Source: a virus
IMG/VR virus record: IMGVR_UViG_3300020456_000027
Span: 1-21,659 of that record
Direction: 5' to 3' (one strand)
Length of the DNA: 21,659 nt
Part shown: one piece after another, positions 7,056 through 21,659 of the stretch
Numbering within the stretch: the stretch's first letter is position 1
How the letters are laid out: every line of letters starts with the position of its first letter
Made by a program: the position numbers and the translations under genes
The notes under the pieces: generated by a model
Databases searched by the model: none
What the model was told of the DNA's origin: nothing
Seen by the model: only the letters and a program-made list of their open reading frames with translations

Positions 7056-7076
7056 AGGGCGGATTGACCGCCCCTA
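7053..7076 (-). terminator. Rho-independent-like terminator after the 204-aa structural gene
   Basis: On the minus strand the sequence AGGGGCGGTCAATCCGCCCT folds into a 6-bp GC-only stem (GGGCGG/CCGCCC) with a 5-nt loop, followed by TTATAAAT rather than a pure U run. In a very AT-rich window this GC block stands out. It lies 23 nt after the stop of the 204-aa gene and directly before the next late promoter, so it likely separates two late transcripts. Confidence 0.75.
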
Positions 7077-7098
7077 AATTGTTAATAATTATGTTCTA

Positions 7099-7713: not shown

Positions 7714-7726
7714 ATCTTTTCTCCTT

Positions 7727-7747
7727 TTAAATTAATTAATTAATTAT
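7727..7747. repeat. short TTAA/ATTA tandem repeat in a late-gene leader
   Basis: About four tandem copies of a 4-bp AT unit (TTAAATTAATTAATTAATTA) lie between the late promoter at 7765-7772 and the ribosome site of the 204-aa gene. It would give an unstructured leader; it may be simple low-complexity drift. Confidence 0.5.
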
Positions 7748-7764
7748 TGTTATATAACTAGTAC

Positions 7765-7772
7765 TATTTATA
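7765..7772 (-). promoter_or_regulatory. T4-type late promoter TATAAATA for the 204-aa structural gene
   Basis: Exact TATAAATA on the minus strand, in the 62-nt gap between the HAD nucleotidase stop (7776) and the structural gene ATG (7713). Placement before a virion protein gene agrees with late control by gp55/gp33/gp45-type proteins. Confidence 0.75.
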
Positions 7773-7775
7773 AGA

Positions 7776-8270
7776 TTAAAAGCCTAGTCTTTTGAGTTGG
7801 GCGATAGTTTTTGATGTATTTGTGTGATGTATTGCCTTACCACCTGCATTGATAAACTCTCTTACGTTCTTTTCGTAATCATCAATGAGAATAGAAGGAT
7901 TGCCTTTTTTGGCAAAGAGTTTCTTTTCTTTTCTTCTTACTAGGTTTATCTTTGATCTATTAGATATACCTGCATTTTTATTTAACCATTTAGTCTTACC
8001 AGGTATACAGTTAGGGTCATAAGACTCTTCTACGTATGCTGATAATATATGAGGATCAAATTTTGATATGTAAGACCATAGTTGTCTGCCACCAGACATC
8101 CAAGGTAGTGTTGACCAGAAGTCTTTTTTTGCTTTGATGAGTGACCACTTCTCTCTACTTGACGGTATATTCATCCATTTATTGATTGACATACCTGTAG
8201 TTCTCTGAGCGCCTGTTTTAAAGTCTGCCAGTACGCCATCCATGTCGCAATATATGATAGGTTTACTCAT
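7776..8270 (-). CDS. HAD-superfamily 5'(3')-deoxyribonucleotidase-like phosphatase
   Basis: Seen: HAD motif I IYCDMDGVLADF (residues 6-17, nucleophile Asp9 and Asp11), motif II ILSAY (75-79, Ser78), a lysine region (GKTKWL, 91-96) and motif IV SILIDDYEKNVREF (126-139, Asp130/Asp131). At 164 aa it matches the compact phage and bacterial 5'-nucleotidase (NT5C-type) group. Known: these enzymes remove phosphate from (deoxy)nucleoside monophosphates. In a phage they may recycle nucleotides or adjust dNMP pools; that role is inferred. It follows a sigma-70-like promoter with a short leader and an AAGGAA ribosome site before the ATG at 8270, so it could be expressed early, unlike the late structural gene after it. 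Confidence 0.85.
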   Translation of the reverse strand: MSKPIIYCDMDGVLADFKTGAQRTTGMSINKWMNIPSSREKWSLIKAKKDFWSTLPWMSGGRQLWSYISKFDPHILSAYVEESYDPNCIPGKTKWLNKNAGISNRSKINLVRRKEKKLFAKKGNPSILIDDYEKNVREFINAGGKAIHHTNTSKTIAQLKRLGF

Positions 8271-8284
8271 AGTGTTTCCTTATA

Positions 8285-8306
8285 CTATTATACTATCATA
8301 TAATAG
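8285..8306 (-). other. 8-bp inverted repeat over the -10 region
   Basis: CTATTATA and TATAATAG are separated by 6 nt, directly over the -10 region of the promoter for the nucleotidase gene. It may be part of the promoter's regulation or chance in AT-rich DNA. Confidence 0.4.
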
Positions 8307-8318
8307 TGCTTTTGTCAA
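8290..8318 (-). promoter_or_regulatory. sigma-70-type promoter for the HAD nucleotidase gene
   Basis: On the minus strand the -35 is TTGACA (8313-8318), followed by 17 nt and the -10 TAGTAT (8290-8295); an alternative -10 TATAAT lies at 8287-8292 with a 20-nt spacer. The likely transcript start is about 13 nt upstream of the ATG at 8270. The -35 is embedded in a perfect palindrome. Confidence 0.65.
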
Positions 8319-8326
8319 TTGACAAA
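8311..8326. promoter_or_regulatory. 16-bp perfect palindrome covering the -35 box, operator candidate
   Basis: TTTGTCAATTGACAAA reads identically on both strands and contains TTGACA in each direction. A dimeric repressor binding here would block the -35 of the nucleotidase promoter. It also lies just after the 274-aa gene's stop. Confidence 0.5.
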
Positions 8327-8335
8327 TTGTCGCAA

Positions 8336-9160
8336 CTAGATAGGTCTCGCTGATGGTTCAAGGTCTATAACTGCAGCTTTTTCACCTGTATCTGTTTTGC
8401 CGTTTTTTCCAAGTCTAACTAGTTTAGTTTCTTGTCTTAACTGTACAAAATCCTTTTTATGAGCATTTTGTTTTTCGCCTTTGTCGTCTTGCGTTACAGC
8501 CTCGTTTTGTTTTTTCTGTTTTGGTATTTTATTATCTTTATCAGGTACACAATTAGGTACTTCTTTACCACCTTTGTTTTTCATACCTACTTGTTTATAT
8601 CCATCCCAGCAAGCTTCTTCAACTTTTTCTTCTTTAGGTACACAATTTGGTACTTCTTTACCATTTTTCTTTTTCATACCTACCATTTTGTAATCTTTCC
8701 AACAAGGGTCTTTATCTTCTTTGTTATATTTTTTCTGACTAGTAATCTTGTCGCCAATTTTATTACCTACAGCAGTACCAGCAGCTGTACCAGCAGCCGC
8801 GGCCGCTGTTCTACCTAATGCCATTAATGGATTTTCTTTAATGTTTTTAGATACTGCAGCTCTTCTTTTGTGAAGATACTTGTCTGTAGAATCTGTATCG
8901 CCATCGTTGTCAATGTCTTTATCTTTTCTATCGTCAAACTTTTTCTTAACAGCGTCTTTATTTACTGGATCTAATTTACTTTCACTTACAACTTTACTTG
9001 CTATGTCTTCTAGTGATCCTTTTTTACTTTCAAAGTATTTCTTTTCTACTGATAATTTTACGTCTGTTTGTGGTTTTGAAATAGAAGCTTGTTCAGAAGC
9101 AATTGTATTAATCTTATCCTCTAAACTATCTTTTCTTGTATCAAAATATTTTTTGTTCAT
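8336..9160 (-). CDS. 274-aa protein with EF-hand/dockerin-like loop and duplicated CW...VPNCVP repeats
   Basis: Seen, in order: three related N-terminal motifs (KKYFDTRKDSLEDKI at 3-17, KKYFESKKGSLEDIA at 40-54, KKKFDDRKDK at 72-81); an EF-hand-type acidic loop DIDNDGDTDSTD (82-93) followed by KYLHKRR, as in dockerin-like calcium sites; an Ala/Gly-rich glycine-zipper stretch (about 117-137) that could contact membrane; and two copies of a Cys-Trp repeat, CWKDYKMVGMKKKNGKEVPN and CWDGYKQVGMKNKGGKEVPN, each ending CVP, with Cys153/Cys184 and Cys173/Cys204 equivalent. Known from memory: these loops and CW/VPNCVP units recur in T4-like marine phage proteins of unknown function. The ATG at 9160 overlaps the previous stop (TAATG). 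A calcium-binding, head-associated protein is a plausible inference. Confidence 0.75.
   Translation of the reverse strand: MNKKYFDTRKDSLEDKINTIASEQASISKPQTDVKLSVEKKYFESKKGSLEDIASKVVSESKLDPVNKDAVKKKFDDRKDKDIDNDGDTDSTDKYLHKRRAAVSKNIKENPLMALGRTAAAAAGTAAGTAVGNKIGDKITSQKKYNKEDKDPCWKDYKMVGMKKKNGKEVPNCVPKEEKVEEACWDGYKQVGMKNKGGKEVPNCVPDKDNKIPKQKKQNEAVTQDDKGEKQNAHKKDFVQLRQETKLVRLGKNGKTDTGEKAAVIDLEPSARPI
8540..8710 (-). repeat. tandem coding repeat (two CW...VPNCVP units)
   Basis: Two copies of about 78 bp (8633-8710 and 8540-8617), separated by about 15 bp, encode 26-residue units with the same Cys, Trp, Gly-Met and VPNCVP positions. DNA identity is visibly high in the VPNCVP part (minus strand GAAGTACCTAATTGTGTACC versus GAAGTACCAAATTGTGTACC), suggesting internal duplication. 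Confidence 0.75.
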
Positions 9161-10443
9161 TACTTTTTGCTCCTTTTTTTAAGTATATCTTCTATAAGAG
9201 ATTTTGCTGGGTGTATTTGTTCTACTGCCATCAAACGGTTCGGCAGTTTAGGTTCGTTTTGAGCTGCCAATGATCTTTTCGCTCTATCTAATCTTAACTT
9301 GTCTTTTAAATCTGCAAGTTTAAGTTGCATATGATGGACATCTGCTTTGTTAATTGCCATTTGTGTTTTATCACCAACGTCTATATCTTTTCTTCGTGCT
9401 TCAGTATCTTTGATACGTGCTGATAAATCTGCAATTTTCTTTTGTGTTCCTGTAGCCATCGCCTGTGCCATTTTAGAAGCGTCTTCTTTGACATTATGAT
9501 GATCTTTACCACAAGATTTACATGGTGATTGACCACATTTACACTCACAAGATTGTTCTACTAATTTTGATATATGAGGTATGTTTGCTTGTTTGATTGC
9601 TAATTGAGTAGGTATATCCATGTTTTTAATATGGGCTTTAACTGCAGGTGTAACATCACTTGCCTTTTTATTCTGCCAAGTTTTCTTAATGTTTTGTATC
9701 TGCGTTGAGTTCAACTTACTCTTTAGATAATCACCTACATCTTCCATTGTCATAATTGCCTTACCGCCTTTTGCAATAACAGATTTAATAAACTTCTCTG
9801 CCTCGTCTTTATCGTCATAATAAGCATTAGCAATTTTACCACCTTTTGAGTATGAAAATTTAACTGAATATCTTTCGTTTATATCTTCGTTAGTTCTTTT
9901 TAAAACGTTTGCAACATCTGGATGTTTTGATAAACCTTTTGCAAGTTTTTCAATTGCCTTTACAGCACCATCATAGTTACCTTGTTTGTATCTAGGATCG
10001 TTTGCAATACCATATGCCTGTTTAATTTGTTGAGAAGTAAACTCTACTATAACTTCTTCTTTTCTTAATATTGCTTTAGCAATATCGTGTGCTTTTGTAA
10101 TTGTTTTTTTATCTACAGGTTTTTCATCATTGTACATATCTTTAGCTTTAGCCATACCAATTGCGTATGCACCATCTTTAGATACATCTTCTTTCTGCAT
10201 TCCTTTTATATCAGGACTGTTGTCAGATTTAAACTTGATGTTACCTCTTAATGTATCTTGTGTAACAGATACTTCTTTGTTACCTTGTGATCTTAATTCT
10301 TTTGCTCTGTTTTCAGCAGAGTCTTTTGTTTTAAAAGGTGACGCATATCTTTTGCCATCTTTACCTCTCCACCTTGCTACATAAACAGTTGTAAATTCGT
10401 TTAGGGATTCGTAATCCCAACCACTTCTATATCTTGTTACCAT
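9160..10443 (-). CDS. 427-aa phage protein with a cysteine cluster, unknown function
   Basis: No enzyme family recognised. Seen: an N-terminal module with VARWRGKDGKRYASPFKTKD (22-41); the block AYAIGMAKAKDMYNDEKPVD followed by KAHDIAKAILRKEE (about 92-130); a second block IKQAYGIANDPRYKQGNYDG then AVKAIEKLAKGLSKHPDV (about 140-177), a motif I recall from T4-like cyanophage proteins; a cysteine/histidine cluster CECKCGQSPCKSCGKDHH (about 299-316), which looks like a zinc-binding knuckle; and a helical C-terminus (residues 320-427) with coiled-coil character. The ATG at 10443 overlaps the upstream gene's end by 7 nt. It is a multi-module protein in the same run as the candidate capsid-cargo genes, but its own N-terminus lacks the targeting motif. 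Confidence 0.72.
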   Translation of the reverse strand: MVTRYRSGWDYESLNEFTTVYVARWRGKDGKRYASPFKTKDSAENRAKELRSQGNKEVSVTQDTLRGNIKFKSDNSPDIKGMQKEDVSKDGAYAIGMAKAKDMYNDEKPVDKKTITKAHDIAKAILRKEEVIVEFTSQQIKQAYGIANDPRYKQGNYDGAVKAIEKLAKGLSKHPDVANVLKRTNEDINERYSVKFSYSKGGKIANAYYDDKDEAEKFIKSVIAKGGKAIMTMEDVGDYLKSKLNSTQIQNIKKTWQNKKASDVTPAVKAHIKNMDIPTQLAIKQANIPHISKLVEQSCECKCGQSPCKSCGKDHHNVKEDASKMAQAMATGTQKKIADLSARIKDTEARRKDIDVGDKTQMAINKADVHHMQLKLADLKDKLRLDRAKRSLAAQNEPKLPNRLMAVEQIHPAKSLIEDILKKRSKK

Positions 10444-13094
10444 TTCTTACAACTCCAATATCTTGCTTTCCATTTAGGTCCTGGATTATCACAGTTATGT
10501 CTTGCTCTGAAGCTTCTTCTTCTTGCAGGATCATCCGCTTTGATTTCCATATTAGGATCACCAAACGATACTTTTACTATATTATCGTTAGGGCCTTTTG
10601 TGTAAACGTAAAACTTTTTAGAACCACCTCTAACAGGTTTGTTCAAAGTAACTTTCTTACCTTGATGTTCTGCTTCTGTAATTTGTGATGGGAAGATTCC
10701 CCACTCATCTGCTTCTTCTTTCATAAAGTCTTTAAATGATAACTTAAAGCCTTCAGTAGCACCTAAATCTTTTCTCATTTCTGCTTTAGATTTATTGTAC
10801 TTTCTTTGAAATTCCTCTGGATCCAAACCGCCTTCTACCTTAGATTTAAGGTCTATTGCGATCTCTTTCATTCTTCCTTCTTGCATATTACTATTGGTGT
10901 CAATCACTTTATTGAACATTTTATTGTATGTTTCTTCAATTTTAGATTGCCACTCTTCCCCATATCTTTCCTTATATTTATTAATAGTTTCTTCTTTACT
11001 TGCCCATTCTTCTATATCTTTTAACTCAACTTTTTTGTTGTCTGTCATGCTTATGTCCTTACTTGCGTTAACATTAATTAAATTATCACTATGTTTACTT
11101 GGACTATAAGAACCACCTTGATACTTAGGATTGTAGTGTTTTTCGCCTGGCGTTATTGAAGATGTATATTTTGCCCAATCATGTCCTATTTCATAGGCTT
11201 CTGGTATACCATCTGTATTAAATTCATTACCTCTATGATGAGGTTCTCTTTCTGATTTTGTCTTCAATTCTCCATACATTTGTTTAAAACCTTTTGTATG
11301 TTTACTAGGTTTTATTTTTGCTACTTTGTCAGCCTTATTACTATCTGACTTTCCTTTAAGTTTATTTGATCGTTCTTCTAATTTTACTGAATAGACAGGA
11401 GTTTCCATGATATTATATAGCCAACATTTGTGTAGGCTCATCTCCTCGTCTTCCAAGGTAACATAGTTTGTTCCTCTTCTTACAATGACACCAGTTATAT
11501 TATTCTCCATATCATCAACTATATCTCCTACGTCATATAAATGCTCTGAAATATATTTGTCCCTTAATGTCATCTTATCTAACTCCTCTTTTGTTGAGGC
11601 AGTTATAAATGGTTTAAATCTAAATGCACTATCAACTTCAAACGAAGCTGCTAACATCATTCCTTTTCTTACATTTCTGAATAAGTCTTGTGCATTTTTT
11701 GAGTTAGCAAAACCAGACGGCAGTCCTTTTTTGAAACTTGCAAAGTCTTTTGATTTTGCAGCCGCTCTCATTTTACTAGCACTCATTCCCGTAGCACCTT
11801 CAGCGTCAGGATCTCTTTCTCCTGCTGAAACTACAGATATACTATCAAAGTCATATAGACCATGACGGCTCTTAACGCCGTTATATTTTTTTAAGATAGT
11901 ATCAAATTCTCTTACTCTATCACTACCTGCAACCATCGTTATGTTTGAGTAACCTCTTTTATATAAATCAGTTACAATATCCAATATCATGTTTGATGGA
12001 TTAAGTAGTATGCTTCTGCTATGTCTAGGAAACATTTGTTTCATTGTTGCTAACTTAACTCTAGCATTCAATGGGTTTTTAGATGTGTCTTCAGATTTAC
12101 TTAAATAAATTCTGTAGTCATCTGTTCTTTGTTGCGCCACTTTGTTAATAAGTTTTTCGTGTCCTATTGTAGGTGGGTTAAAACGGCCAAAGGTAAATGC
12201 TATTGATCTACCCTTGGCCTCTTTTATTTTAGATAACGATTTTAGTTCGGCAGGTGTAATCTTGCCATCTTCCATAATCTCTTTCAACTTTTTGAAAAAT
12301 TTGAGATAATGATACTTTTCTAACATCTTATAAATCACATTTTTCGGAAGTCGGTTTTTCACACCAAACTTTCTAATCTCGTCTGGTGACATATCTTTAC
12401 TAAAAGCGTCCTTTCGGTCGTTAATAGTCTTGTCGCCAATATCAATTAGAGTGTTAATAGAATCTTTAATCTCATCTAGCTTTTTAGAAACTAAACTTGA
12501 CAAGTTATCAATATCGGAGCTTGTCAAATCTTTTAGTTCCTCATAATCAATCATATCCCTTACGAGTTCACCTTTAACAACATCTATTTCAGAAACACGC
12601 TTCTGAAAATCCGATACGTATTTTTCTGGTTCAAAGGTTCCAGGTTCTGGTTTTTTGATCCACTTGTTAGTGTCTATATCAAAAGTACCATCTGCCATGT
12701 CCCTTGCCTTACTAAATGTATCAGGATCTATTATGGAGAAGTAGTTGATAGGATGCTCTGTGCCTGGTATAGTTTTACCATTTATCTGTCCTTGATATTC
12801 TCTAATCTCATCATGTACCTTTTCTTGTTCTGCTTTTGAACCAGGTATATCAAATAAGATATTAACATCTAGGTCGGCATCAGCCCTATATTGTTTTGTA
12901 AGTATTGAACCTATTAAGGTATACTTAACTACTTTACCAAATTTTTCAAATGTCTTTACGCCATCTAATACTTGTTTTTTTACAGATGGTTTTAAAACAG
13001 GATTAGGAGTATCTGCTTTATCAAATACACCTCTTGCATACGTTTTTCTAGGTATGTCTATGATAGACTCTTTTATGAAATCTTTAAATCTCAT
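10437..13094 (-). CDS. 885-aa fusion: pol-beta-type nucleotidyltransferase plus NMN-adenylyltransferase-like domain plus conserved C-terminal phage domain
   Basis: Start: ATG at 13094 in an ATGA junction with the upstream P-loop kinase; an upstream ATG at 13127 would bury the targeting motif. Domains from this start: MRFKDFIKE (1-9), a capsid-targeting-like peptide; nucleotidyltransferase core YTLIGSILTKQYRADADLDV (59-78) with the GS...DxD pattern; cytidylyltransferase/NMNAT core TFGRFNPPTIGHEKL (301-315), VAGSDRVREF (388-397) and MSASKMRAAA (437-446), equivalent to the ISxTxxR end motif; an SH3/KOW-like stretch GDIVDDMENNITGVIVRRGT (523-542); YEIGHDWAKYTSSITPGE (634-651); a second internal FKDFMKE (787-793); and a basic C-terminus RSFRARHNCDNPGP...ARYWSCKKW. 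Known: NMNATs make NAD+ from NMN and ATP; pol-beta NTases transfer NMPs. Substrates here are unproven. The combination of domains suggests a head-packaged multifunctional protein (inference). Confidence 0.8.
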   Translation of the reverse strand: MRFKDFIKESIIDIPRKTYARGVFDKADTPNPVLKPSVKKQVLDGVKTFEKFGKVVKYTLIGSILTKQYRADADLDVNILFDIPGSKAEQEKVHDEIREYQGQINGKTIPGTEHPINYFSIIDPDTFSKARDMADGTFDIDTNKWIKKPEPGTFEPEKYVSDFQKRVSEIDVVKGELVRDMIDYEELKDLTSSDIDNLSSLVSKKLDEIKDSINTLIDIGDKTINDRKDAFSKDMSPDEIRKFGVKNRLPKNVIYKMLEKYHYLKFFKKLKEIMEDGKITPAELKSLSKIKEAKGRSIAFTFGRFNPPTIGHEKLINKVAQQRTDDYRIYLSKSEDTSKNPLNARVKLATMKQMFPRHSRSILLNPSNMILDIVTDLYKRGYSNITMVAGSDRVREFDTILKKYNGVKSRHGLYDFDSISVVSAGERDPDAEGATGMSASKMRAAAKSKDFASFKKGLPSGFANSKNAQDLFRNVRKGMMLAASFEVDSAFRFKPFITASTKEELDKMTLRDKYISEHLYDVGDIVDDMENNITGVIVRRGTNYVTLEDEEMSLHKCWLYNIMETPVYSVKLEERSNKLKGKSDSNKADKVAKIKPSKHTKGFKQMYGELKTKSEREPHHRGNEFNTDGIPEAYEIGHDWAKYTSSITPGEKHYNPKYQGGSYSPSKHSDNLINVNASKDISMTDNKKVELKDIEEWASKEETINKYKERYGEEWQSKIEETYNKMFNKVIDTNSNMQEGRMKEIAIDLKSKVEGGLDPEEFQRKYNKSKAEMRKDLGATEGFKLSFKDFMKEEADEWGIFPSQITEAEHQGKKVTLNKPVRGGSKKFYVYTKGPNDNIVKVSFGDPNMEIKADDPARRRSFRARHNCDNPGPKWKARYWSCKKW

Positions 13095-13777
13095 CTTTTG
13101 CGAGCCTCTAATTCTTTTTTCATCCATTGTTTGGCCTTATAATTCTGTACTGGCGCTGTAATAAATCTTCTTACTAACTTGCCAATTCTGTTCATTGTAA
13201 GAGTGACTAACTCTAAATCAGATTTATTGTTATCTACTACAATAAATTTAGCCATACCAAATAGTCTTTGAAACTTACCAATATTGTTTTGTACACCTTC
13301 CCAACTAGATTTTGTAATATACTCTGGGATGGTTCTTTCACGTCTGGCGTTTCTTGCCAATGCGACTTCTAAACTTGTATTAACAAATACCATATAACTA
13401 TCATAACCAAGTTGTTGCAACATGTTATGGTTTCTAGCAATTACATCATAATCTCTACCTGTGCTGTCAATTACTAAACCAAGTCTGCCTTGTACATATT
13501 TATCTAATTGTGAAATAGCAGTTTGTTTTGCACGGCTTCTAATTATGTTTCTAAAGTATTCTTCTTCGTCTGGCATACTTAAAGATAGGTTTGCTTTCTT
13601 TAAGTTTCTTTCAAATGTAGTATCTGAATTAACAACTTTTAAACCTGTACCTGCAAATGCTGATTGGGTTACAAATGATTTACCTGATCCAGGACCACCT
13701 GCTAGAAAGAACGCTTTGAATATACCTGGGTCATAAACACCTTCAGATAAATGTTGTATAAAACTATTGACCGCCAT
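13091..13777 (-). CDS. P-loop kinase (zeta-toxin-like/AAA-type fold), 228 aa
   Basis: Seen: Walker A GGPGSGKS (residues 27-34) after a hydrophobic strand (KAFFLA), VIDSTGRDYDV (about 101-111) as the second strand with an acidic residue, VFVNTSLEVALARNARRERT (130-149) as the base-binding/lid-like region with paired arginines, and FIVVDNN near the C-terminus. The layout is that of the zeta-toxin/nucleoside-kinase group of P-loop kinases. The N-terminus AVNSFIQHLSEGVYDPGIF carries a capsid-targeting-like peptide ending in L-S-E. The ATG at 13777 overlaps the adenylate kinase gene by 14 nt, and the stop overlaps the fusion gene (ATGA). There is no antitoxin partner, so a toxin-antitoxin role is unlikely. 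The substrate is unknown; end-phosphorylation of nucleic acid or phosphorylation of a small molecule are possibilities. Confidence 0.78.
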   Translation of the reverse strand: MAVNSFIQHLSEGVYDPGIFKAFFLAGGPGSGKSFVTQSAFAGTGLKVVNSDTTFERNLKKANLSLSMPDEEEYFRNIIRSRAKQTAISQLDKYVQGRLGLVIDSTGRDYDVIARNHNMLQQLGYDSYMVFVNTSLEVALARNARRERTIPEYITKSSWEGVQNNIGKFQRLFGMAKFIVVDNNKSDLELVTLTMNRIGKLVRRFITAPVQNYKAKQWMKKELEARKR

Positions 13778-14351
13778 TGTCTATCCTTCTTATAATTTCT
13801 TTTGCTGTTTCTTCAGGTGTACCACCCTCAGCAGTTACACTAATAAAGTTATCTTTTTTTCTAAAGTATTCTACAACAGGACCTGTTTCTCTTTTGTATA
13901 GTTCTATTCTGTTGTTTATAATCTCTTCCGTATCGTCTGCTCTACCTCTTGCAAGTAATCTACGTAATACTTCTTCTCTACTTACATCTAAAAATACTGC
14001 ATAATCATAACCTATTTCGTTCTTCTCCATGTCTTCAACTTGTTGCATATATCTAGGCCAACCATCTAATACATAACCTTTAGGTGACTTCTCAATTTTA
14101 TCTTTAATTAACTCTAATACTATTTGATTAGGAGCAAACTCACCTCTATCAATAATACTTTTTGCAATCTTACCTATTTCTGTTCCTTTTTCTACTTCTT
14201 TTCTTAACATGCCACCTGGGTAAATGTGAGTAATATCATATTCTTTAACAAGGTATTCTGTATATGTTGATTTACCTGAACCAGGTCCACCTAACATAAC
14301 AATTCTTTTACGGCCTATTTGTTCAAATATAAAATCTCTAAAACTTTTCAT
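13764..14351 (-). CDS. adk: adenylate kinase (short type)
   Basis: Seen: P-loop RIVMLGGPGSGKSTYTEYL (16-34), the NMP-binding helix with MLRKEVEKGTEIG (48-60), VLDGWPRYMQQVEDME (94-109) with the DG-[FW]-PR motif, and ARGRADDTEEIINNRI (134-149), the short lid with R-x-D-D of the LID-less class. These match adenylate kinase (ATP + AMP to 2 ADP), a cytosolic energy and nucleotide enzyme. The first residues MKSFRDFIFEQ are an added N-terminal peptide that a usual Adk would not have; it fits a capsid-targeting tag cut after I-F-E. The ATG at 14351 is in an ATGA junction with the ligase-like gene upstream. A UMP/CMP kinase would look similar, so nucleotide specificity is not certain. Confidence 0.88.
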   Translation of the reverse strand: MKSFRDFIFEQIGRKRIVMLGGPGSGKSTYTEYLVKEYDITHIYPGGMLRKEVEKGTEIGKIAKSIIDRGEFAPNQIVLELIKDKIEKSPKGYVLDGWPRYMQQVEDMEKNEIGYDYAVFLDVSREEVLRRLLARGRADDTEEIINNRIELYKRETGPVVEYFRKKDNFISVTAEGGTPEETAKEIIRRIDNGGQ

Positions 14352-15571
14352 CCTTTTATCCAGTTCTTAGCAAGTGTAAAGTTAGCAGTACTAAACTCTA
14401 ATCTATCTACTAGTTTTACTGCGTTGCCCATTCTATCTACAGCAACGTAGCCTTCAGGATTAGTTACTACAAAACCATTACCTTTTTGTAGAAATGTTCC
14501 CATTGATTTAATTTGATTCATTTTACTTACTAGAAAGTTCTTTACTCTTTGTAAAGTTACGTAACTAGCAATCGCAAAGTAAATATCGTTCTCATTGCTA
14601 TCAATGAATCTTAAACCATCGTTTTTTATTTGTTCGTATTTCTTTTTAGCATTAGCAGTTTTTCTTTTTGACACCTCGTCATCTAATACTTTAGCGTAAT
14701 ATGTTCTAAATTCTGATTGTAATTTTCTGACATTCTGTATAGATTGTCCTGCTCTTATTTGTGTATTAAAAAATATCTTTAATCTAGCACCGACAGATAA
14801 TAAATTAGTTTGTCTTTTTAATAATTCTAAAATTCTTTTACCTTTTGATATTGATCCCATTGCCATTCTTAACATACTATCATACTGAGCGCTTTCTGTA
14901 GTTGTAAATGTAGCAACACCAGATGAGTCTTTATAACTTGCGTCATCAAAAAATACTGCTGGCGTCTTTGCAAAACGATTTACATTGACGCCAAAACTTG
15001 CTTTTAAATTGGACATCTTTTTGCCTGTGTAAGAAGTGTGAAAGATGATACCTAGTTTAGCTCTTTTGATTTTTCTAGCAAGGTCAGTATTTTCTGGTAC
15101 AGCGTAAGTGATTGTATTAGGTGTAAATGCAATGGCATCCTCACCTCTTATAGATACGGACTTAATGTCGCCAGGTGTAAACAACAAGTCGCCTTGTACA
15201 ACACCTTTGATACCTAATTTTGGTAATTCTTTTAAACATACAGATAGTTTATCTACTAAACCACCTGCGTGATTTTTTCTAATGTCTGATTGTGTGTAAT
15301 TGATTTTAGGAGTTACGTTGAATACAGATTTTGATCCAACAAAAAATCTGCCGTTTTCAGGATTGACACCACAGAATACAGCAGGTGCACCATCCCATTT
15401 AACAGATACGTTTAACTTTCTACGAGATGAACCAATAAGCATGTTTCTTATAGATTTAAGAAACTCTACCGCATTGACACCACCTTGGTATCCGTTATTA
15501 ATAATTTCGTCTTCTAAATGTTCTAAATGAGTGTTCTTTGCCTCATTTAAGTATTGTTTAAAACTGTACAT
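14348..15571 (-). CDS. ligase-like nucleotidyltransferase-fold phage protein, 407 aa
   Basis: Start: ATG at 15571 with a GGGAG ribosome site 5 nt upstream; a longer frame starts at 15622 but would lie within the promoter. Seen: N-terminal tag MYSFKQYLNEAK; a conserved block KNTHLEHLEDEIINNGYQGG (12-31); SVKWDGAPAVFCG (56-68) with a K-x-D-G ligase-type motif I (Lys58); RFFVGSKSVF (75-84); GVVQGDLLFT (123-132), like ligase motif III; and KLGIIFHTSYTGKKMSN (172-188). The order K-x-D-G, then 'QGDLL', then 'GIIFH' resembles the catalytic core of DNA/RNA ligases and related covalent nucleotidyltransferases. I recall this as a conserved T4-like phage family (possibly DUF6267) without proven activity. 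Activity is inferred, not shown. It opens the cluster of tagged enzymes. Confidence 0.75.
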   Translation of the reverse strand: MYSFKQYLNEAKNTHLEHLEDEIINNGYQGGVNAVEFLKSIRNMLIGSSRRKLNVSVKWDGAPAVFCGVNPENGRFFVGSKSVFNVTPKINYTQSDIRKNHAGGLVDKLSVCLKELPKLGIKGVVQGDLLFTPGDIKSVSIRGEDAIAFTPNTITYAVPENTDLARKIKRAKLGIIFHTSYTGKKMSNLKASFGVNVNRFAKTPAVFFDDASYKDSSGVATFTTTESAQYDSMLRMAMGSISKGKRILELLKRQTNLLSVGARLKIFFNTQIRAGQSIQNVRKLQSEFRTYYAKVLDDEVSKRKTANAKKKYEQIKNDGLRFIDSNENDIYFAIASYVTLQRVKNFLVSKMNQIKSMGTFLQKGNGFVVTNPEGYVAVDRMGNAVKLVDRLEFSTANFTLAKNWIKG

Positions 15572-15589
15572 TTGTCTCCCACTATACCC

Positions 15590-15618
15590 ATTATAACAAA
15601 AAATATCGCTCTTGTCAA
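15590..15618 (-). promoter_or_regulatory. perfect sigma-70 consensus promoter for the ligase-like/adk cluster
   Basis: Minus strand -35 TTGACA (15613-15618), 17-nt spacer, -10 TATAAT (15590-15595): an exact consensus match with ideal spacing. Predicted start near 15583, giving a leader of about 12 nt with a GGGAG ribosome site before the ATG at 15571. It implies strong early or middle transcription by host polymerase. Confidence 0.85.
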
Positions 15619-15664
15619 GCAAAAAATATCAAATAATCCCATAATAAATCACTTCTTACTAGAC

Positions 15665-15672
15665 TATTTATA
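15665..15672 (-). promoter_or_regulatory. T4-type late promoter TATAAATA upstream of the ligase-like/adk cluster
   Basis: Exact TATAAATA immediately after the stop codon of the 392-aa gene (15673), in the 101-nt gap that also holds the perfect sigma-70 promoter. The cluster could thus be transcribed both early and late. Late expression would suit proteins that are packaged into the head. Confidence 0.65.
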
Positions 15673-16851
15673 CTATTTTGCTATTACAAATTTACCTGAT
15701 AGGGGAGTCCTTGATGTTATGTACTCAAACATCAATCTTAAAACTTTATTGCCTTCATCTTTTTTATTGTCTTTAAAAAACCTTTTAAGTATTGGCATAA
15801 CTTCGTTGATGACATATATGGCACTTATAGCACCTCTTTCAAAATCAAATCTTGGTTTATCTTTTCTTAAATATTCTATCTTTTTTAATGCGTCAAAGTA
15901 TTTTTGTTCACCTCTTTTATACTTGTCAAGTATTTGTTTTGCAACATCTGGATTTACAAAGTGTATAATTTCTGATAATACTTTCATAGAGCCAATTGAA
16001 CCACCTCTTGCCTCTGCCTTTGAGAATATAGCTTCTGCAACAAATCTTTTTGCACTAGGGTCATGTCTTAATTTTATATCACCACCAGACTCTAATAGTA
16101 TTCTCATATCTCTAGTATTACCTTTTGCAGGATACTTAACCTTCTTATATGGTTGCCAATCTGTTACACCTTTTATAGCAACTTTTTTGATATACTTTAT
16201 TTCTTCTTTTCTATCAAAGTTTACCATTTGTAGTATGGCTTCTTTTGTCGTTTTTTTAAGTGATAAAGGAAATAAATCACCACTATCTATTAGATCAGAT
16301 GTAATGATGTTAAGATTTTGAAAAGTATAGATTCTTTCTTTTGCACCTTTTAATTCTTCATGTAGTGCCTTTTTAGCTTTATCTGTTGCAAGGTATATAT
16401 CTGCAGGATTCCATTTGTTTAGATTACCAAATTTAGTTTGTGATTTATAACCTGACTTGTTTGCTATCTTAAATAACTTTTCTATAGTGCCCATTATTTC
16501 TTGGTCACCTCTATAGTAAAAGATGTCCTGAAAACCTTGTTTAGCGATTTTAAAATCAGGATCTATTTTAGTTATGTCGTTGATTAATTTTTTTGCAATC
16601 TGTAAAGATGATACGTACCATTTAGTATCTTTCTTTAAAAATAATTCTAATTCGTTTAGTGCTACGCCAGGTGTTTCAATGTTCTTATGAGCTGCCTTTA
16701 AAGTAGCGTCTGTTATTTGATTTCTAAAATCTGTATAATCAGGATACTTTTTAGGGTCAAATAGTTGATTAGTTCTTTGAACACCTATGTAATCTGCAAT
16801 TGAACAAAACAATGCCTGTGATGATTCTGCTAGTGTGGTTAAGTCTGCCAT
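15673..16851 (-). CDS. conserved T4-like phage protein, 392 aa, unknown function
   Basis: Seen: LAESSQALFCSIADYIG (7-23), FGNLNKWNPADIYLATDKAK (about 141-160), and the C-terminal block IKLRHDPSAKRFVAEAIFSK then AEARGGSIGSMK (about 258-289), followed by helices. 'WNPADIYLA' and 'LAESSQALYC' are patterns I recall from uncharacterised T4-like marine phage proteins. The WNPADI and acidic/lysine spacing around LRHDP...VAEAIF could suit a nuclease-like fold (PD-D/E-x-K type), but the catalytic set is not clear, so no activity is claimed. The ATG at 16851 lacks a good ribosome site nearby; the 8-nt gap after the upstream gene suggests re-initiation. It lies at the end of the replication run. Confidence 0.72.
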   Translation of the reverse strand: MADLTTLAESSQALFCSIADYIGVQRTNQLFDPKKYPDYTDFRNQITDATLKAAHKNIETPGVALNELELFLKKDTKWYVSSLQIAKKLINDITKIDPDFKIAKQGFQDIFYYRGDQEIMGTIEKLFKIANKSGYKSQTKFGNLNKWNPADIYLATDKAKKALHEELKGAKERIYTFQNLNIITSDLIDSGDLFPLSLKKTTKEAILQMVNFDRKEEIKYIKKVAIKGVTDWQPYKKVKYPAKGNTRDMRILLESGGDIKLRHDPSAKRFVAEAIFSKAEARGGSIGSMKVLSEIIHFVNPDVAKQILDKYKRGEQKYFDALKKIEYLRKDKPRFDFERGAISAIYVINEVMPILKRFFKDNKKDEGNKVLRLMFEYITSRTPLSGKFVIAK

Positions 16852-16859
16852 AGATATAT

Positions 16860-17153
16860 TTATCTACGGCCTCTGCTCCTTGCTGGAGAATTGTAGTTTG
16901 TTTTACCTTTATCTGCGATTTTTTCTTCTTCGGTTCTACAATCAAAGAAAGGTGGGAAACCAAAGACACCAAATGTCTTATGTTTGTTTTGAAATTTTGT
17001 AAGTTTCTTTACATCTTCCTCAAAGAAAGACTCTTGCAACACTAACTTACTAGGCATTTCAACGCAACGCCATATGATTTCGCCTTTTGACTTAACCATT
17101 TCTGTCTTGTAATAGATAGATGGTTTTCTTTTTCTTGCTGGTTTTTTCTTCAT
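16860..17153 (-). CDS. 97-aa basic protein, conserved in phages, unknown function
   Basis: Seen: a basic N-terminus (MKKKPARKRKPSIYYKTEMV), IIWRCVEMPSKLVLQESFFE then EDVKKLTKFQNKHKTFGVFG, the block FPPFFDC (66-72), and a basic tail ending SPARSRGRR. The order 'W--VE-PS---V---FFEED---L--FQN-----FG-FGFPPF' is a pattern I recall from small T4-like marine phage proteins. No function is known to me; the basic termini are compatible with nucleic-acid binding. The ATG at 17153 overlaps the stop of the SufT-like gene (ATGA), so it is co-translated in the replication run. Confidence 0.72.
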   Translation of the reverse strand: MKKKPARKRKPSIYYKTEMVKSKGEIIWRCVEMPSKLVLQESFFEEDVKKLTKFQNKHKTFGVFGFPPFFDCRTEEEKIADKGKTNYNSPARSRGRR

Positions 17154-17443
17154 AGATTCAGTATTAATTTAGCTTCTTCACTTAACATATCTCTACTAAA
17201 TGGTGGAGTATGTGTTAATATAATCTTTACATTACCTTCACCTGCTACACGTTCAGTAGCTTCTTTTATATCTTTGCTTATTTGATCTGCCATAGGGCAA
17301 AGCATAGAGGTTAGTGTGTGAGTAATTGTAACTTTATCTTCTTTTATATCAATGTCGTAAATCAGTCCTAAATTAAATACATCTACAGATGGCATTTCAG
17401 GATCATAAACCTTTTTTAGTTCTTCTATTATTTTATCTTTCAT
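17150..17443 (-). CDS. SufT/DUF59 (MIP18/PaaD-like) Fe-S assembly factor
   Basis: Seen: EELKKVYDPEMPSVDVFNLG then LIYDIDI (7-33), ITHTLTSMLCPMADQI (40-55) with the conserved Cys49, and LTHTPPFSRDMLSEEAKLIL (76-95), matching the DUF59 signature 'DPE-P-V-V-DLGLIY', 'TLT---CP', 'PP(W/F)---M-SEEAK--L'. At 97 aa it is a stand-alone single domain. Known: SufT/MIP18 proteins help mature Fe-S proteins, and phage copies have been noted in marine T4-like viruses. The gene's ATG overlaps the gp41 helicase stop (TAATG). Inference: it supports Fe-S enzymes, host or phage, during infection; the target is not visible here. Confidence 0.88.
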   Translation of the reverse strand: MKDKIIEELKKVYDPEMPSVDVFNLGLIYDIDIKEDKVTITHTLTSMLCPMADQISKDIKEATERVAGEGNVKIILTHTPPFSRDMLSEEAKLILNL

Positions 17444-18825
17444 TATACTTTAAAATCTGAAAACTTATCATACACGTCCACAGATTGTGGGCCTGATGGT
17501 TTCTCAATCTTCTCCTTACTTTCTTGGTTACTATCTACAATCTGTTGAGCAGATTGTTCTACATCATATAATCTCATCTTGCTTCTATCTACACCAATTA
17601 TAAATGCACGATTAACAGCAGGATCATTATAACGATTCTTTAATTGTTTAACTTTGATTTGACCAAGTTCTTCAAGTTCATCATTTGAAATAAGAGCAAA
17701 CATGAAGTCAGCAGTTGCAGGAAGACCAAAACTTTCTGAAGTATCTTCAAGCCCTACGTCACTTGATAGATAACCAGATCTGGTTGTTTGAGTAGCAGAT
17801 ACAATAGGTACATCATATTGTACTGCAAGACCTCTTAATTCTTCAGCAATTGCTTTTACATAAAAGTATGAGGATATATTGCCACCTTTAAATCTACTAC
17901 TAGAGCAAATGTTTAGATAGTCAATGAATACTATATCAGGTTTAAATGATTTCTTTAGGGCAAGTTCATCTATCAAAGATTTAAAATGACCTGCATGAGC
18001 AGCTGCCGTAGGATATTCTTTGATGATTAGTTGACCATTAATTTTGTTTTGTAATTTAGATGTTTTGTTATCGTATATTTCTTTTGGCATTTCATAGAGG
18101 TCATCTATGGTTACATCTAATAAGTTAGCGTCAATTCTTTCTGCGATACGTTCTTCAGCCATCTCTAAAGTTATATACAATACATTCTTACCTTGTGATA
18201 TAACACTACTAGCGAGATGACACATAAACAAAGACTTACCAACACCAGTACCTGCAAGAGCAACGTTAAGTGTTTTAGGTGGCAGACCACCTTTAGTTAT
18301 TCTATTGAAGTATGAAAGATCAAACTTTAATCTCTCCTCTGTTCTATGGTAATAATCAAATCGCTCATCTGTTTGAGCAAGATAATCATGCCCTATATGT
18401 CTATCAAATGAAACGCCAAGTGCTTGTGATAAGATACTAGGTATTGCTTCTGGTGTATGTTTCTTATCTTTACCATCTATGATTTTGATACCTTGTAATA
18501 CTGCATTGTACACAGCACGGTCTTTACAAAACTTTTCAGTTGTATCTAACAACCATTGTTGTTCAACTTCTTCGTGTTGTAAACTATTTAATAATGATTT
18601 TGTATTTTTATATTCGTCTTCGGTAAGTGTTTTGTTATTTGATAATTCAATTTCAATTGCTTCTTTTGTAGGGAGATTATTATATTTTACAACAAAAGCA
18701 TTTATGATATTAAATAGAGTTACCTCATCTCTATTTCTAAAGAAGTCAGGTTTGATAAATGGTAATGTTTTTCTTGTAAAATCTTCGTTGTAAATTAGAT
18801 TAGATAATAACGTCTTCTCAAACAT
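17443..18825 (-). CDS. gp41: replicative DNA helicase, gp41/DnaB family
   Basis: Seen: N-terminal helical domain (about 1-110), then a RecA-like hexameric helicase core: Walker A LAGTGVGKSLFMCH (190-203), NVLYITLEMAEERIAERIDA (214-233) with the glutamate-containing H1a-type motif, Walker B KPDIVFIDYLNI (295-306), the H3-type block VPIVSATQTTRSGYLSSDVG (about 341-360), and IGVDRSKMRLY near the end. This is the DnaB/T4 gp41 layout at a usual length (460 aa; T4 gp41 is about 475). It unwinds DNA ahead of the replication fork and works with primase and polymerase. The ATG at 18825 overlaps the 2OG oxygenase gene's end by 8 nt and has a GGAG ribosome site about 11 nt upstream. Confidence 0.92.
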   Translation of the reverse strand: MFEKTLLSNLIYNEDFTRKTLPFIKPDFFRNRDEVTLFNIINAFVVKYNNLPTKEAIEIELSNNKTLTEDEYKNTKSLLNSLQHEEVEQQWLLDTTEKFCKDRAVYNAVLQGIKIIDGKDKKHTPEAIPSILSQALGVSFDRHIGHDYLAQTDERFDYYHRTEERLKFDLSYFNRITKGGLPPKTLNVALAGTGVGKSLFMCHLASSVISQGKNVLYITLEMAEERIAERIDANLLDVTIDDLYEMPKEIYDNKTSKLQNKINGQLIIKEYPTAAAHAGHFKSLIDELALKKSFKPDIVFIDYLNICSSSRFKGGNISSYFYVKAIAEELRGLAVQYDVPIVSATQTTRSGYLSSDVGLEDTSESFGLPATADFMFALISNDELEELGQIKVKQLKNRYNDPAVNRAFIIGVDRSKMRLYDVEQSAQQIVDSNQESKEKIEKPSGPQSVDVYDKFSDFKV

Positions 18826-19384
18826 AATGTAGATAACTCCCTATAATATACTTTGGTTGATTGATTGGTTTCTGTCCTGCGTGTCTAAATGTCCACAATG
18901 GTGGGAATACGAGCACCTTACCTGCCTCTGGTTTAACTGATATATCGTAATCTGGAAATGTTGTTTCGCCGCCATCATTGTTATTTAAATACATAAAAAA
19001 AACTAAAAATCTTCTAGCACTATTATAGTTAGTCACATCTACATGTGTTTGGAATTCATCTTCGTTGTTAGGTTCATACTTCTTAAATCTTATCTGTTCA
19101 AAGCCAAACTTTTCTGGCCATTGTTTTAATGAGTCTATATTAACATCTTTTACATATTTGTCAACAACCTGTCGTAATTTAGGAAAGATTATATCTGCAT
19201 ATTCTTTCCAGTCTGAAAACATGTTAAGATTAATTTCTGTAAATGACATATGACCTTTTAAATTTGTTTTAGATTGTTGATGTTGCGAATCTTCAAACTT
19301 ATCAATAAGGTGTTGACATTGGTCCTTTTTAAGTACATTTTTGTATGTACATATATAATCACTTTTGAAACTTAATTTGACCAT
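18818..19384 (-). CDS. 2-oxoglutarate/Fe(II)-dependent oxygenase (prolyl-4-hydroxylase-like)
   Basis: Seen: double-stranded beta-helix metal motif FQTHVDVTNYN (111-121; His114, Asp116), FLVFFMYLNNNDGGETTFPD (126-145), and EAGKVLVFPPLWTFRHAGQK (153-172) with the distal His168 and a candidate 2OG-binding Lys178. All three iron ligands are present, so it is likely active. Known: these enzymes use 2-oxoglutarate and O2 to hydroxylate proteins, nucleic acids or small molecules; T4-like marine phages often carry several. The substrate is unknown. It lies between uvsX and gp41, with short overlaps on both sides (26 and 8 nt), so it is co-expressed with replication genes; a DNA- or protein-modifying role is possible but inferred. 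Confidence 0.9.
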   Translation of the reverse strand: MVKLSFKSDYICTYKNVLKKDQCQHLIDKFEDSQHQQSKTNLKGHMSFTEINLNMFSDWKEYADIIFPKLRQVVDKYVKDVNIDSLKQWPEKFGFEQIRFKKYEPNNEDEFQTHVDVTNYNSARRFLVFFMYLNNNDGGETTFPDYDISVKPEAGKVLVFPPLWTFRHAGQKPINQPKYIIGSYLHYV

Positions 19385-19646
19385 TCTCTAATTGTTTTTC
19401 TACGACCTCTACTAATATGTCGCCTATGTAATTTCTAAAATCAATACTTGTTGTATCAACATCATTAGGATTCTTTTTAATATCATAATCAAACTTTAAA
19501 GGCAGCTCACCTCTTTCATTTTCTTCCGAGGCAAACTTTACATGACCATATGTGTATATGATGTCTTTGTAAGGTCCTTCTACAATCTTTATACAACTAT
19601 AATCATCAACATCACGTTGAGCAAAGACGTATCTATTCTGTGCCAT
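19359..19646 (-). CDS. 95-aa protein downstream of uvsX, unknown function
   Basis: Seen: ATG at 19646, [20 protein letters not shown] then [20 protein letters not shown], with a C-terminal block [18 protein letters not shown]. The frame is open to 19736, but those upstream residues lie inside the uvsX coding region, and the start at 19646 gives a tidy 14-nt overlap with uvsX. No family is recognised; it is a small alpha/beta protein with the order 'V-I--GPYK-I-Y-YG-V', which I recall loosely from T4-like phages next to uvsX. Its last 26 nt overlap the oxygenase gene. It may assist recombination or replication; this rests on position only. Confidence 0.65.
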
Positions 19647-20652
19647 AAAGGAATTCTTTTTTGGCTGCTTCGTCAATTTGAGTGAGAACATCTTTAGTAA
19701 AGAATTTATCAGGTTCATTATTGATAGTTTTAGCATATTGTTTACTTCCGTCAGGTAGTTCTATTCTTGTTGATACTGATTTAAATATACCATGTTTGAT
19801 AGCGAGTTCTAATAACCCATAGTACTTATCAAGGCCATCTTTGTATGTTAATCTTACATCAACCAAAGCATTCTCTTTTGTCAACCTTGACTTATAATTC
19901 TTACAATGAATAATATTACCAATGATTTCTTTACCATCTTTCTCTTTACGTTTAGATAGATACACGATATTACTAGCAGCGTATTTTAAACCACTACCAC
20001 CGCCCATCTCCTTTTGAGGAAACATTGAGCCGATAACATCATATGTATGATTGGTCATAATCATAGGTACTTTTGCTTTGCCAAGTTTTAAAGTCAATAC
20101 TCTAAATGCAGCTTTTACAATCTGCGACCTAGTCATATCTCTAGTTTCTTTACCTTCGGCAGTATCTTCCATTTCTTTTGTAGTAGATAACATACCTAAA
20201 CTATCTAATACAAACATTAGAGGTTTTCTTTTATCTTCACCTTGTTCTAGGTATTTGTCAATCACTTTGATTGATTGATGTCTAAACTCTTGTACTGTGG
20301 CAACTGGTACAATAACCATTCTGCTACTGTCTATACCACGACTTTCAACTAAATCTTTTGTTAACGCACTTTCTGATTCAAAGTAAATCACACCTGCGTC
20401 TTTGTTTTTATCTAAAAATGCTTTTACAATTCCTAATGCAAAGAAAGTTTTACCTGTTGCAGCTTCACCTGCAATTGCTGTAATTTTATTTGATGGCATA
20501 CCACCATAGATTGAACCTGATAGTAAAGCATTAAAGGCAAGGGAACCTGTATCAATAAACGAATCAACGTCACCTGCTTCTACACCCTCACTTACTAGTG
20601 TGGCATATTCATTACCAGTTTCTTTTATTATATCTTTTAAAAAATCACTCAT
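19633..20652 (-). CDS. uvsX: UvsX-type RecA-like recombinase
   Basis: Seen: N-terminal helix, then [20 protein letters not shown] (37-56), Walker [17 protein letters not shown] (59-74), [20 protein letters not shown] (88-107) with the RecA-like catalytic Glu region, Walker [14 protein letters not shown] (143-155), and the L1/L2-like DNA-binding region around [20 protein letters not shown] and [20 protein letters not shown]. Known: T4 UvsX coats single-stranded DNA and pairs homologous duplexes in recombination-dependent replication and repair. At 339 aa it is shorter than T4 UvsX (about 390) but close to marine T4-like versions. The ATG at 20652 has an AAGGAG ribosome site 8 nt upstream and follows a perfect sigma-70 promoter. 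Confidence 0.93.
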
Positions 20653-20675
20653 ATTAATTCTCCTTATGTGTATGT

Positions 20676-20704
20676 ATTATATCAGTATTTGTATCTATTG
20701 TCAA
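20676..20704 (-). promoter_or_regulatory. perfect sigma-70 consensus promoter for the uvsX-gp41 operon
   Basis: Minus strand -35 TTGACA (20699-20704), 17-nt spacer, -10 TATAAT (20676-20681), an exact consensus with ideal spacing, directly after the methyltransferase stop. Predicted start near 20669, about 17 nt upstream of the uvsX ATG. This would drive early replication genes with host RNA polymerase. Confidence 0.87.
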
Positions 20705-20708
20705 GCCT

Positions 20709-21659
20709 CTAAAATAGTGTTGCTCTCCTACTATGTCTAAAGTAATCTAGTTTTTCTTTTGAAAAACACCAAACGTTTTCAATATATATTCTATTCATAA
20801 ACTCTGCTTTTTCTTCGTCACTTTCAAATAACTTATCTGATTTAGGACGTTGCATAATCCTCATACCTATCTGACCTACAAAGTTATCTTTTAAACTATC
20901 AACTAATTCATCACTTGAATAATATCTCTTATTCTTAATATTAGGGTCCATGATGTTTACAAACATATGCTTTGACCTTTCAAAACTCTTTTGAGCAACA
21001 GGCAGATAAAAATCATCACGCCATTTAGAATATTCATCAAACTTATGCCATGATTGATTTTCTTCTTTTTCACCACCTTCGTTATATCTTTCTGTAGAGA
21101 AATATGGTGGACTTGTAAATGCACAATCTATATTGTCAATTTTATCCCATGGTAAATCTTCAGCACCACAGTTATAGATAGTTACCTTTTTAGGTTTAGA
21201 TAAGAAACTATTATATGTTTCTACTTGTTTTAAATATTGTTTGTAAGTATTAGGGTTAGGATCACAACCGATATATTCTTCAGCGTCACTAGTAAAGAAA
21301 CCTGCAAGTCTATCGCCCCAACCACATGATGTATCTAATACTTTTTTAGCATTTGTCATCTGATAGATTGTCTTTGCTACATTTGGTTTAAATTGTGTTG
21401 CGATATATGTACCTAATCTAAACGCTGACATGTAACTCTTATCATCTAATCTACCACCTCTTAATTCTATTTTGTTATCTACTTCAACAGGTTTCATACC
21501 ATTGATACCACGCCATATAGGACCTAGACAACGCCATATATCTTTCGCTGTACCATTCTCCCATACATCTATTGGTGCTTTAAAACCAAAACTACCACAA
21601 TTCAATCTTAAATGTTGATGAAAGTAATTTGATATGTCATTGAAATTAGATGGTGCGTC
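20709..21659 (-). CDS. SAM-dependent DNA methyltransferase-like protein (5' end outside window)
   Basis: The frame stays open to the right edge; a TTG at 21605 is available, but 18 more in-frame residues (starting DAPSNFNDISNYFHQ) precede it, so the true start is outside the window. Counting from the edge, seen: motif I KVLDTSCGWGDRLAGF (about 106-121) for SAM binding, YIGCDPNPNTYKQYL (129-143) with the acidic residue at the end of strand 2, and motif IV CAFTSPPYFSTERYN (about 179-193), the S-P-P-Y catalytic loop of amino-group (N4-cytosine or N6-adenine) methyltransferases. Known: this loop flips out and methylates a base amino group. No restriction partner is visible, so it is an orphan, perhaps protecting phage DNA or modifying it for regulation (inference). 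It lies upstream of uvsX. Confidence 0.82.
   Translation of the reverse strand, partial: DAPSNFNDISNYFHQHLRLNCGSFGFKAPIDVWENGTAKDIWRCLGPIWRGINGMKPVEVDNKIELRGGRLDDKSYMSAFRLGTYIATQFKPNVAKTIYQMTNAKKVLDTSCGWGDRLAGFFTSDAEEYIGCDPNPNTYKQYLKQVETYNSFLSKPKKVTIYNCGAEDLPWDKIDNIDCAFTSPPYFSTERYNEGGEKEENQSWHKFDEYSKWRDDFYLPVAQKSFERSKHMFVNIMDPNIKNKRYYSSDELVDSLKDNFVGQIGMRIMQRPKSDKLFESDEEKAEFMNRIYIENVWCFSKEKLDYFRHSRRATLF

Follow-up and report, generated by a model that had tools for sequence, protein, structure and literature searches.

Paired early- and late-type promoter motifs before a cluster of putatively head-tagged enzyme genes in a relative of Pelagibacter phage HTVC008M

A 101-nt intergenic gap in a viral sequence of 21,659 nucleotides (hereafter the window, meaning the whole stretch analysed) is probably a two-phase control region at the junction between replication genes and a cluster of enzymes with head-tag-like N-termini, and early-plus-late expression of that cluster is the best explanation of the sequence evidence. 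Early in infection, host RNA polymerase with a sigma-70-type factor would initiate from a TTGACA-17-TATAAT promoter, about 12 nt before the ATG at 15571, and the transcript would read through the tagged cluster. Late in infection, polymerase carrying the phage late sigma factor gp55, together with gp33 and the gp45 clamp, would start 6 nt past TATAAATA, producing the same message behind a leader of about 88 nt. The likely reason would be that these enzymes act early yet must be present at head assembly, since their N-termini resemble capsid-targeting tags. If so, genes for possible head-carried proteins would be under both early and late control, an early promoter would have been joined to a late one more than once, and a testable question follows, namely whether injected enzymes must also be made afresh early in infection.

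Layout of the junction and the genes behind it

The window is part of a T4-like phage related to Pelagibacter phage HTVC008M, which carries the closest DUF6267 protein among the deposited phages searched (52.9% identity over 99%). Its genes lie mainly on the minus strand, as do both promoter motifs. The gap is positioned after replication genes (polymerase, uvsX, and gp41, of which uvsX and the gp41-type helicase lie upstream of it in the window) and before the tagged cluster, and it runs for exactly 101 nt (15572-15672) from the stop of a 392-aa ORF at 15673 to the ATG of the DUF6267 gene. Read 5' to 3', it consists of TATAAATA abutting the stop, the block GTCTAGTAAGAAGTGATTTATTATGGGA, a T-rich stretch, GCTTGACA, a 17-nt spacer, TATAAT, and GGGTATAGTGGGAGACAA, followed by the ATG (Table 1). 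The first-pass annotation had placed a late box and a "second" exact sigma-70 promoter in this gap, ahead of the tagged enzymes. The position of the late box, the position (15590-15618) and spacing of the sigma-70 string, and the length of the gap were all confirmed, and the other copy of the exact promoter lies at 20676-20704, 23 nt before uvsX.

Table 1 Features of the junction and adjoining genes, in window coordinates
Feature	Position	Strand	Remarks
Late promoter box TATAAATA, T4-type	15665..15672	-	Directly 3' of upstream ORF stop
Conserved late-leader block, core GATTTAT..ATGG	15637..15664	-	28 nt
Weak hairpin TTGCTT-GACAA-GAGCGA	15606..15622	-	6 pairs, 2 of them G-U; T-rich spacer follows
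-35 hexamer TTGACA	15613..15618	-	Preceded by GC
-10 hexamer TATAAT	15590..15595	-	17-nt spacer, TG in front
Predicted early transcript leader with SD-like GGGAG	15572..15583	-	Inferred from position of the -10
DUF6267 gene, tag MYSFKQYLNE/A	14348..15571	-	First gene behind gap; PF19782, E 1.1e-124
Adenylate-kinase-like gene, tag MKSFRDFIFE/Q	13764..14351	-	PF00406, E 2e-39
P-loop kinase / zeta-toxin-like gene, tag MAVNSFIQHLSE/G	13091..13777	-	PF13671, PF06414
Cytidylyltransferase-like gene, tag MRFKDFIKE/S at internal ATG 13094	10437..13094	-	phrog_395, E 2.1e-71
Upstream gene phrog_1462	15673..16851	-	Stop abuts late box; last gene before junction

Two start codons bear on this layout. A TTG at 15622 is an alternative start for DUF6267 that would put the sigma-70 site inside the ORF, a risk with gene callers; the start was set at 15571 because of the shared NTHLEH motif and the SD-like GGGAG. 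For the cytidylyltransferase-like ORF, the probable start is an internal ATG at 13094 (MRFKDFIKE), which gives it a head tag. A longer ORF starting at 13127 hides this tag, and the homologues in the contigs of two relatives, G001 and G002 (166 and 171 kb), begin at the internal methionine.

The N-termini of the cluster were compared with the T4 targeting rules. In T4, the first 10 residues of internal protein IPIII suffice for capsid targeting, residues 4 and 7 matter for targeting and residues 8 and 10 for processing, and gp21 cuts after L/I-x-E (PMC9026906). The DUF6267 and adenylate kinase tags (MYSFKQYLNE and MKSFRDFIFE) fit this rule in place, both in targeting residues 4 and 7 and in an L/I-x-E that occupies 8-10, and the tags of the P-loop kinase and the cytidylyltransferase are shifted by +2 and -1, respectively. 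The window thus resembles the T4 internal proteins in the N-terminal 10 residues, at positions 4, 7, 8, and 10, and in L/I-x-E, whereas its tags are carried by a kinase, a nucleotidyltransferase, and DUF6267, for which packaging is predicted.

With ORFs of at least 50 or 60 aa called by a simple procedure, a regular expression for tag-like N-termini matched five ORFs each in the window (of 28), G001 (of 198), and G002 (of 212), and two in HTVC008M (of 181). Applied to residues 41-58, it matched none in the window or G001 and one each in G002 and HTVC008M. The uvsX gene is among the matches in every record and is probably a chance match, and the other match in HTVC008M is DUF6267 itself. Right behind the gap stand four of the matches in G001, three in the window, and three in G002; the window cytidylyltransferase was missed by the expression because of its longer ORF start.

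Conservation, genomic context, and known parallels

Both motifs are taken as real because they are conserved upstream of DUF6267 in relatives. For the exact sigma-70 string with a spacer of 15-19, 0.05 occurrences were expected in the window; there are two, and none of 100 shuffles gave two. The late box is not rare by count (three copies against 4.3 expected, with at least three in 83 of 100 shuffles), and each of the three lies between genes, on the strand of the genes, in a window that is 6.8% intergenic by simple ORF calling. A first sample of 80 loci was drawn from 170 candidates; two (L066 and L073) were left out for too little upstream DNA, and the remaining 78 together with the window make 79 upstream regions. 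Among these 79, the late box is exact in 74 and present as [TC]ATAAATA in 78, and the sigma-70 string is exact in 67 and present as TTGAC[AT]-17-TATAAT in 78. The two main upstream-gene groups account for 70 regions, and in 67 of these the late box is 0-1 nt away from the upstream stop. The sole region without a late box, L078, also has a different upstream gene.

Mean pairwise identity among 46 distinct rows is 0.956 at the -35 and 0.993 at the -10, and among 45 rows it is 0.984 at the late box; the spacer reaches 0.631, against 0.705 at fourfold sites of the DUF6267 gene. These figures are descriptive, as the rows are related; one of the 46 coding rows has an internal stop. Near-invariant hexamers against a freer spacer are the contrast expected from two working promoters, and both promoter elements look to be under purifying selection. 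The early element has the form of a sigma-70 promoter, with TTGACA and TATAAT at a distance of 17 +/- 1 and conservation that leaves out the spacer.

The wider genomes place the two motif classes before different kinds of genes. A location at least 75% intergenic was found for 18 of 29 late boxes in G001, 25 of 30 in G002, and 12 of 21 in HTVC008M, and for 10 of 15, 7 of 10, and 7 of 12 sigma-70 strings, respectively; intergenic DNA makes up 8.7%, 8.1%, and 4.7% of these records by simple ORF calling. In both G001 and G002, late boxes lie ahead of gp13, gp18, gp21, a gp22-containing ORF, and gp32, and there is a sigma-70 string before DNA polymerase and another upstream of gp45. In G001, sigma-70 strings also stand before gp55 and uvsX. 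These two contigs also have boxes of both classes ahead of genes whose class is unknown. In G001, G002, and the window, the stretch before DUF6267 is the only place where an exact late box and an exact sigma-70 string lie on one strand within 120 nt of each other; with exact motifs counted, there is no such pair in HTVC008M. Homologues of gp55, gp45, and a gp33-like protein were detected by tblastn in G001 and G002; none of the three was found in the window, which is a 21.7-kb fragment. Searches for MotA and AsiA found neither in any of the six records, and their controls were likewise silent.

This context is consistent with a T4-type late promoter, as TATAAATA would lie at -13 to -6 and its copies stand upstream of late genes. 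PMC2988020 and PMC1524935 describe the late consensus of T4 and how relatives use it; the latter found late promoters exclusively before late genes in five further T4-like phages. The window shares with T4 the same exact 8-bp box, and its relatives have the gp55, gp33-like, and gp45 homologues; it differs in a long leader with a conserved block that is unseen behind the other listed late boxes. Early-plus-late control as a kind is already known. In RB49 and S-PM2, genes preceded by an early as well as a late promoter are considered substitutes for the middle mode, Syn9 also has early-plus-late genes, and Q-PCR of a few S-PM2 genes is described as giving no middle profile (PMC2984593). As in those T4-like phages, an early and a late promoter motif stand upstream of the same gene in the window; in RB49 and S-PM2 the genes concerned are homologues of T4 middle genes, whereas in the window it is the head of the tagged-enzyme cluster. 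The pairing at a tagged cluster, the conserved late leader, and repeated gain of the early promoter were not found described in the literature searched. For the marine phages concerned, that literature held motif predictions, such as the 31 early and 15 late promoters predicted in Melnitz (PMC9004378), and start-site data were not found; nor did a literature search on pelagiphage promoters and transcription yield expression data for a relative. The early and late transcription proposed in the first-pass annotation is nevertheless well supported by sequence, through the conservation of both motifs, their early and late gene context, and the apparent separate gain of the sigma-70 promoter described below.

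Head tags and the history of the promoter pair

Phylogenetic analysis was extended to a second sample of 80 loci, of which 35 were viewed and 27 entered the tree, and a third of 80, with 31 inspected and 13 in the tree. In all, 120 rows were submitted, 118 passed the length filters, and 85 distinct proteins remained; L078, the sole row with a sigma-70 promoter but no late box, was merged because its protein is identical to that of another row. A late box without a sigma-70 promoter belongs to 14 of the 72 distinct late-box proteins. The loci that keep late box and leader while the sigma-70 promoter is absent come from more distant relatives and are L151, L153, L156-L158, L166-L172, L174-L178, and L181-L183. 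The 13 HTVC008M-like rows of the tree have neither motif. Among 31 HTVC008M-like loci searched up to 1600 nt upstream, a single late box was found, 1348 nt away, and no sigma-70 match; none has NATAAATA within 250 nt upstream. In HTVC008M itself, neither promoter stands directly before DUF6267.

On this tree, the state with both promoters needs three changes, and the starred branches force two. Within a 12-row clade (100/99), L179 and L180 pair as sister to the ten late-only proteins; their promoters read TTGACT-17-TATAAT and TTGACT-16-TACAAT, and in both the spacer encloses the late box. This geometry is unlike that of the window, so a separate sigma-70 origin is likely, and by geometry the sigma-70 promoter has likely arisen at least twice. 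Four late-only rows beside the window's clade suggest that it can also be lost, and loss is therefore possible there as well. Taken together, the late promoter and conserved leader look like the older part, to which the sigma-70 promoter would have been added later. When leaders were compared by eye (L157/L158 against L031), hairpin and sigma-70 promoter resembled a piece of about 30 nt inserted where GTGATTTTT meets ATGGATATAGTGG.

The first-pass annotation had explained the dual control by proteins that are useful early and needed again late as packaged cargo. This rationale is plausible but only partly supported: the tags fit the T4 rules and cluster directly behind the gap, but the link between tag and late box proved weaker than it had seemed at first. 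An M.SFK start ahead of NTHLEH is present in all 72 distinct late-box DUF6267 proteins, and the full tag pattern (two aromatic residues plus L/I-x-E) in 58 of them, against 0 of the 13 proteins without the box. The 14 late-box proteins that lack the full pattern are L065 and L069, which have F-I-E instead, plus the whole L166-L183 clade (L179, L180, and its ten late-only proteins), which has K at position 10. Complete absence of the tag from the 13 box-less proteins was considered and rejected, as L/I-x-E is found in 13/13; their N-termini, read from the nearest ATG, are shorter or altered (MELLNE, MYNDLLVE, and the tag-like MYSLNNYLVE of L200). Likewise, all 31 inspected HTVC008M-like loci have L/I-x-E (one read from a TTG) and none has the full pattern. 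The co-occurrence of tag and late box thus concerns the aromatic part rather than the cleavage motif and appears as one clade contrast.

More distant phages add to this. The tag was found in none of five cyanophages inspected, and in four of the five there is no NATAAATA within 250 nt of DUF6267. In S-PM2 (L267), DUF6267 is untagged and 27 nt upstream of it lies AATAAATA, a string that fits the NATAAATA late consensus reported for this phage (PMC2984593), and a late-type box without a tag weakens the link further. DLP6 and C48C1 have a tagged DUF6267 with no late box directly upstream; in C48C1 and Melnitz, a neighbouring gene on the upstream side has a late box in front of it. By eye, the clusters of DLP6, C48C1, and Melnitz (L271, L272, and L266), phages of other or unknown hosts, contain several genes with tag-like N-termini. 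Neither virion data nor a paper on DUF6267 was found in the literature searched.

Leader block, hairpin, and alternative readings

One conserved element of the gap is explained by neither promoter. Across its 28 columns, the block behind the late box has a mean pairwise identity of 0.857, where fourfold sites have 0.705, and it occurs once per record in six relatives and not at all in HTVC008M at up to 3 mismatches. Its core (GATTTAT..ATGG) is found in 56 of 62 distinct late leaders. Two simple accounts of the block were rejected. A general late-leader sequence does not fit a block that occurs once per record while other late leaders differ, and a coding function in the window's clade does not fit a frame that, by eye, stops at once past its ATG in many relatives. 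In the late-only leaders of L166-L183, a MEQVIIVMGKMRE-like frame is similar between loci and out of frame with DUF6267, as judged by eye; it is either a uORF or merely conserved DNA.

A weak hairpin, whose 5' arm and loop contain the -35, would lie within any late transcript. In the window its energy is -5.0 kcal/mol at 37 C and -7.7 at 18 C, and 10 of 200 shuffles were as low. In many relatives it reads CGCTT-GACAA-AAGCG, with the T-rich spacer next. The architecture is present in 35 of 40 distinct promoter regions, compared with a mean of 7.2 and a largest value of 13 in 200 flank shuffles, a weak control given that the rows are related. When arms were swapped among 21 distinct arm pairs with loop length free, the observed mean stem was reached in 10 of 2000 trials. 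GCTTGAC, the -35 with GC in front, occurs at 19 of 37 sigma-70 sites of three relatives, and because it is so common in the early promoters of this family, one arm of the hairpin is fixed for another reason. RNAalifold returned no consensus RNA structure, and on the fixed alignment 76.5% of cells are paired against 75.6% after shuffling, which leaves covariation unsupported, although this pair count is also a weak test since a fixed alignment ignores loop length. Rfam gave no meaningful match, the one hit (E 0.82) lying outside the gap. Overall, a hairpin over the -35 is suggestive.

A hairpin with a T-rich tail between late box and gene could stop late transcripts, which counts against the two-phase reading. 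The late promoter might then mainly make a short leader RNA, ended or attenuated by hairpin and T-rich spacer after about 55-60 nt, so that only the sigma-70 promoter feeds the cluster and the 28-nt block is the working part of a small late RNA or attenuator. The frequency of the architecture, the rarity of equally good stems among arm swaps, and the unusual conservation of a block that is unique in the records searched agree with this, as does a strong hairpin at 6572 of G002, upstream of gp45, which has a T tract and holds the -35 in its loop. We nonetheless regard it as unlikely: the stem of the window is weak, stems are absent in L062, L065, and L081 and T tracts in L074-L077, the structure searches were negative, and the leader core is kept in late-only relatives that have no hairpin. 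In the fuller form of this idea, the gap would combine an early promoter with a separate late regulatory RNA or attenuator, ended or paused by the -35 hairpin. Taken jointly with the prediction that such an RNA would start at the late box and carry the GATTTAT..ATGG head, this form seems rather unlikely; if true, the phage would switch the RNA source of the cluster between phases rather than add both. The G002 hairpin (L093, 6561-6586) has a 10-bp stem with 7 G-C pairs and TTGAC in the loop, overlaps the sigma-70 promoter, and is the clearest terminator-promoter fusion that we saw.

PeSL cassettes, reported by Arbiol 2010 and Comeau 2014, join a stem-loop terminator to an early promoter. The window likewise has a putative stem-loop and an early-type promoter at a gene junction; it differs in that the hairpin is weak, its roles as terminator and as repeated element are putative, and the unit is joined to a late promoter. 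The hairpin and sigma-70 promoter could thus be a PeSL-like terminator-promoter cassette that insulates the cluster, the pairing with the late box being a by-product of the landing site. The insert-like appearance of this unit within an older leader would agree, as would the differing sequence before the junction in L022/L036, L078, L081, and loci without a sense ORF there, and PeSLs have been described as mediating gene shuffling between T4-like phages (PMC4503421). A genome-wide class of promoters with the -35 in a loop was not supported, however, at 5 of 37 sigma-70 sites against 3.08 after shuffling (95 of 500 shuffles as high), and this provides no family of copies; moreover, the upstream gene belongs to one family in 68 regions and the late box is kept in 78 of 79, which makes the cassette reading quite improbable. 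That a single promoter is active and the other is a relic or chance string is very improbable, for although late-only lineages exist and TATAAATA is not rare by count, both hexamer sets stayed near invariant while spacer and fourfold sites diverged.

Early-plus-late expression from two promoters remains the preferred reading, and a few observations on promoters and terminators elsewhere were made alongside it. Within 1660-21659 of the window, 7.0 terminator-like sites were expected and 16 were found, 14 of which are on the plus strand and hence antisense to the genes; this excess possibly reflects strand composition rather than terminators. The pattern TTGACW-N14-20-TATAAAT is found at 4 places in Melnitz (0 in controls) and at 10 in all 13 records (1 in controls), matches that are too few to press. 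In Melnitz (MZ577098.1, 12133-12163; 353-383 of L266), a late box overlaps a possible -10 with TTGACT 17 nt upstream, and this overlap stands before the first tagged gene of the cluster. A similar overlap of late box and -10, with a -35 17 nt upstream, precedes L245, as TATAAATG.
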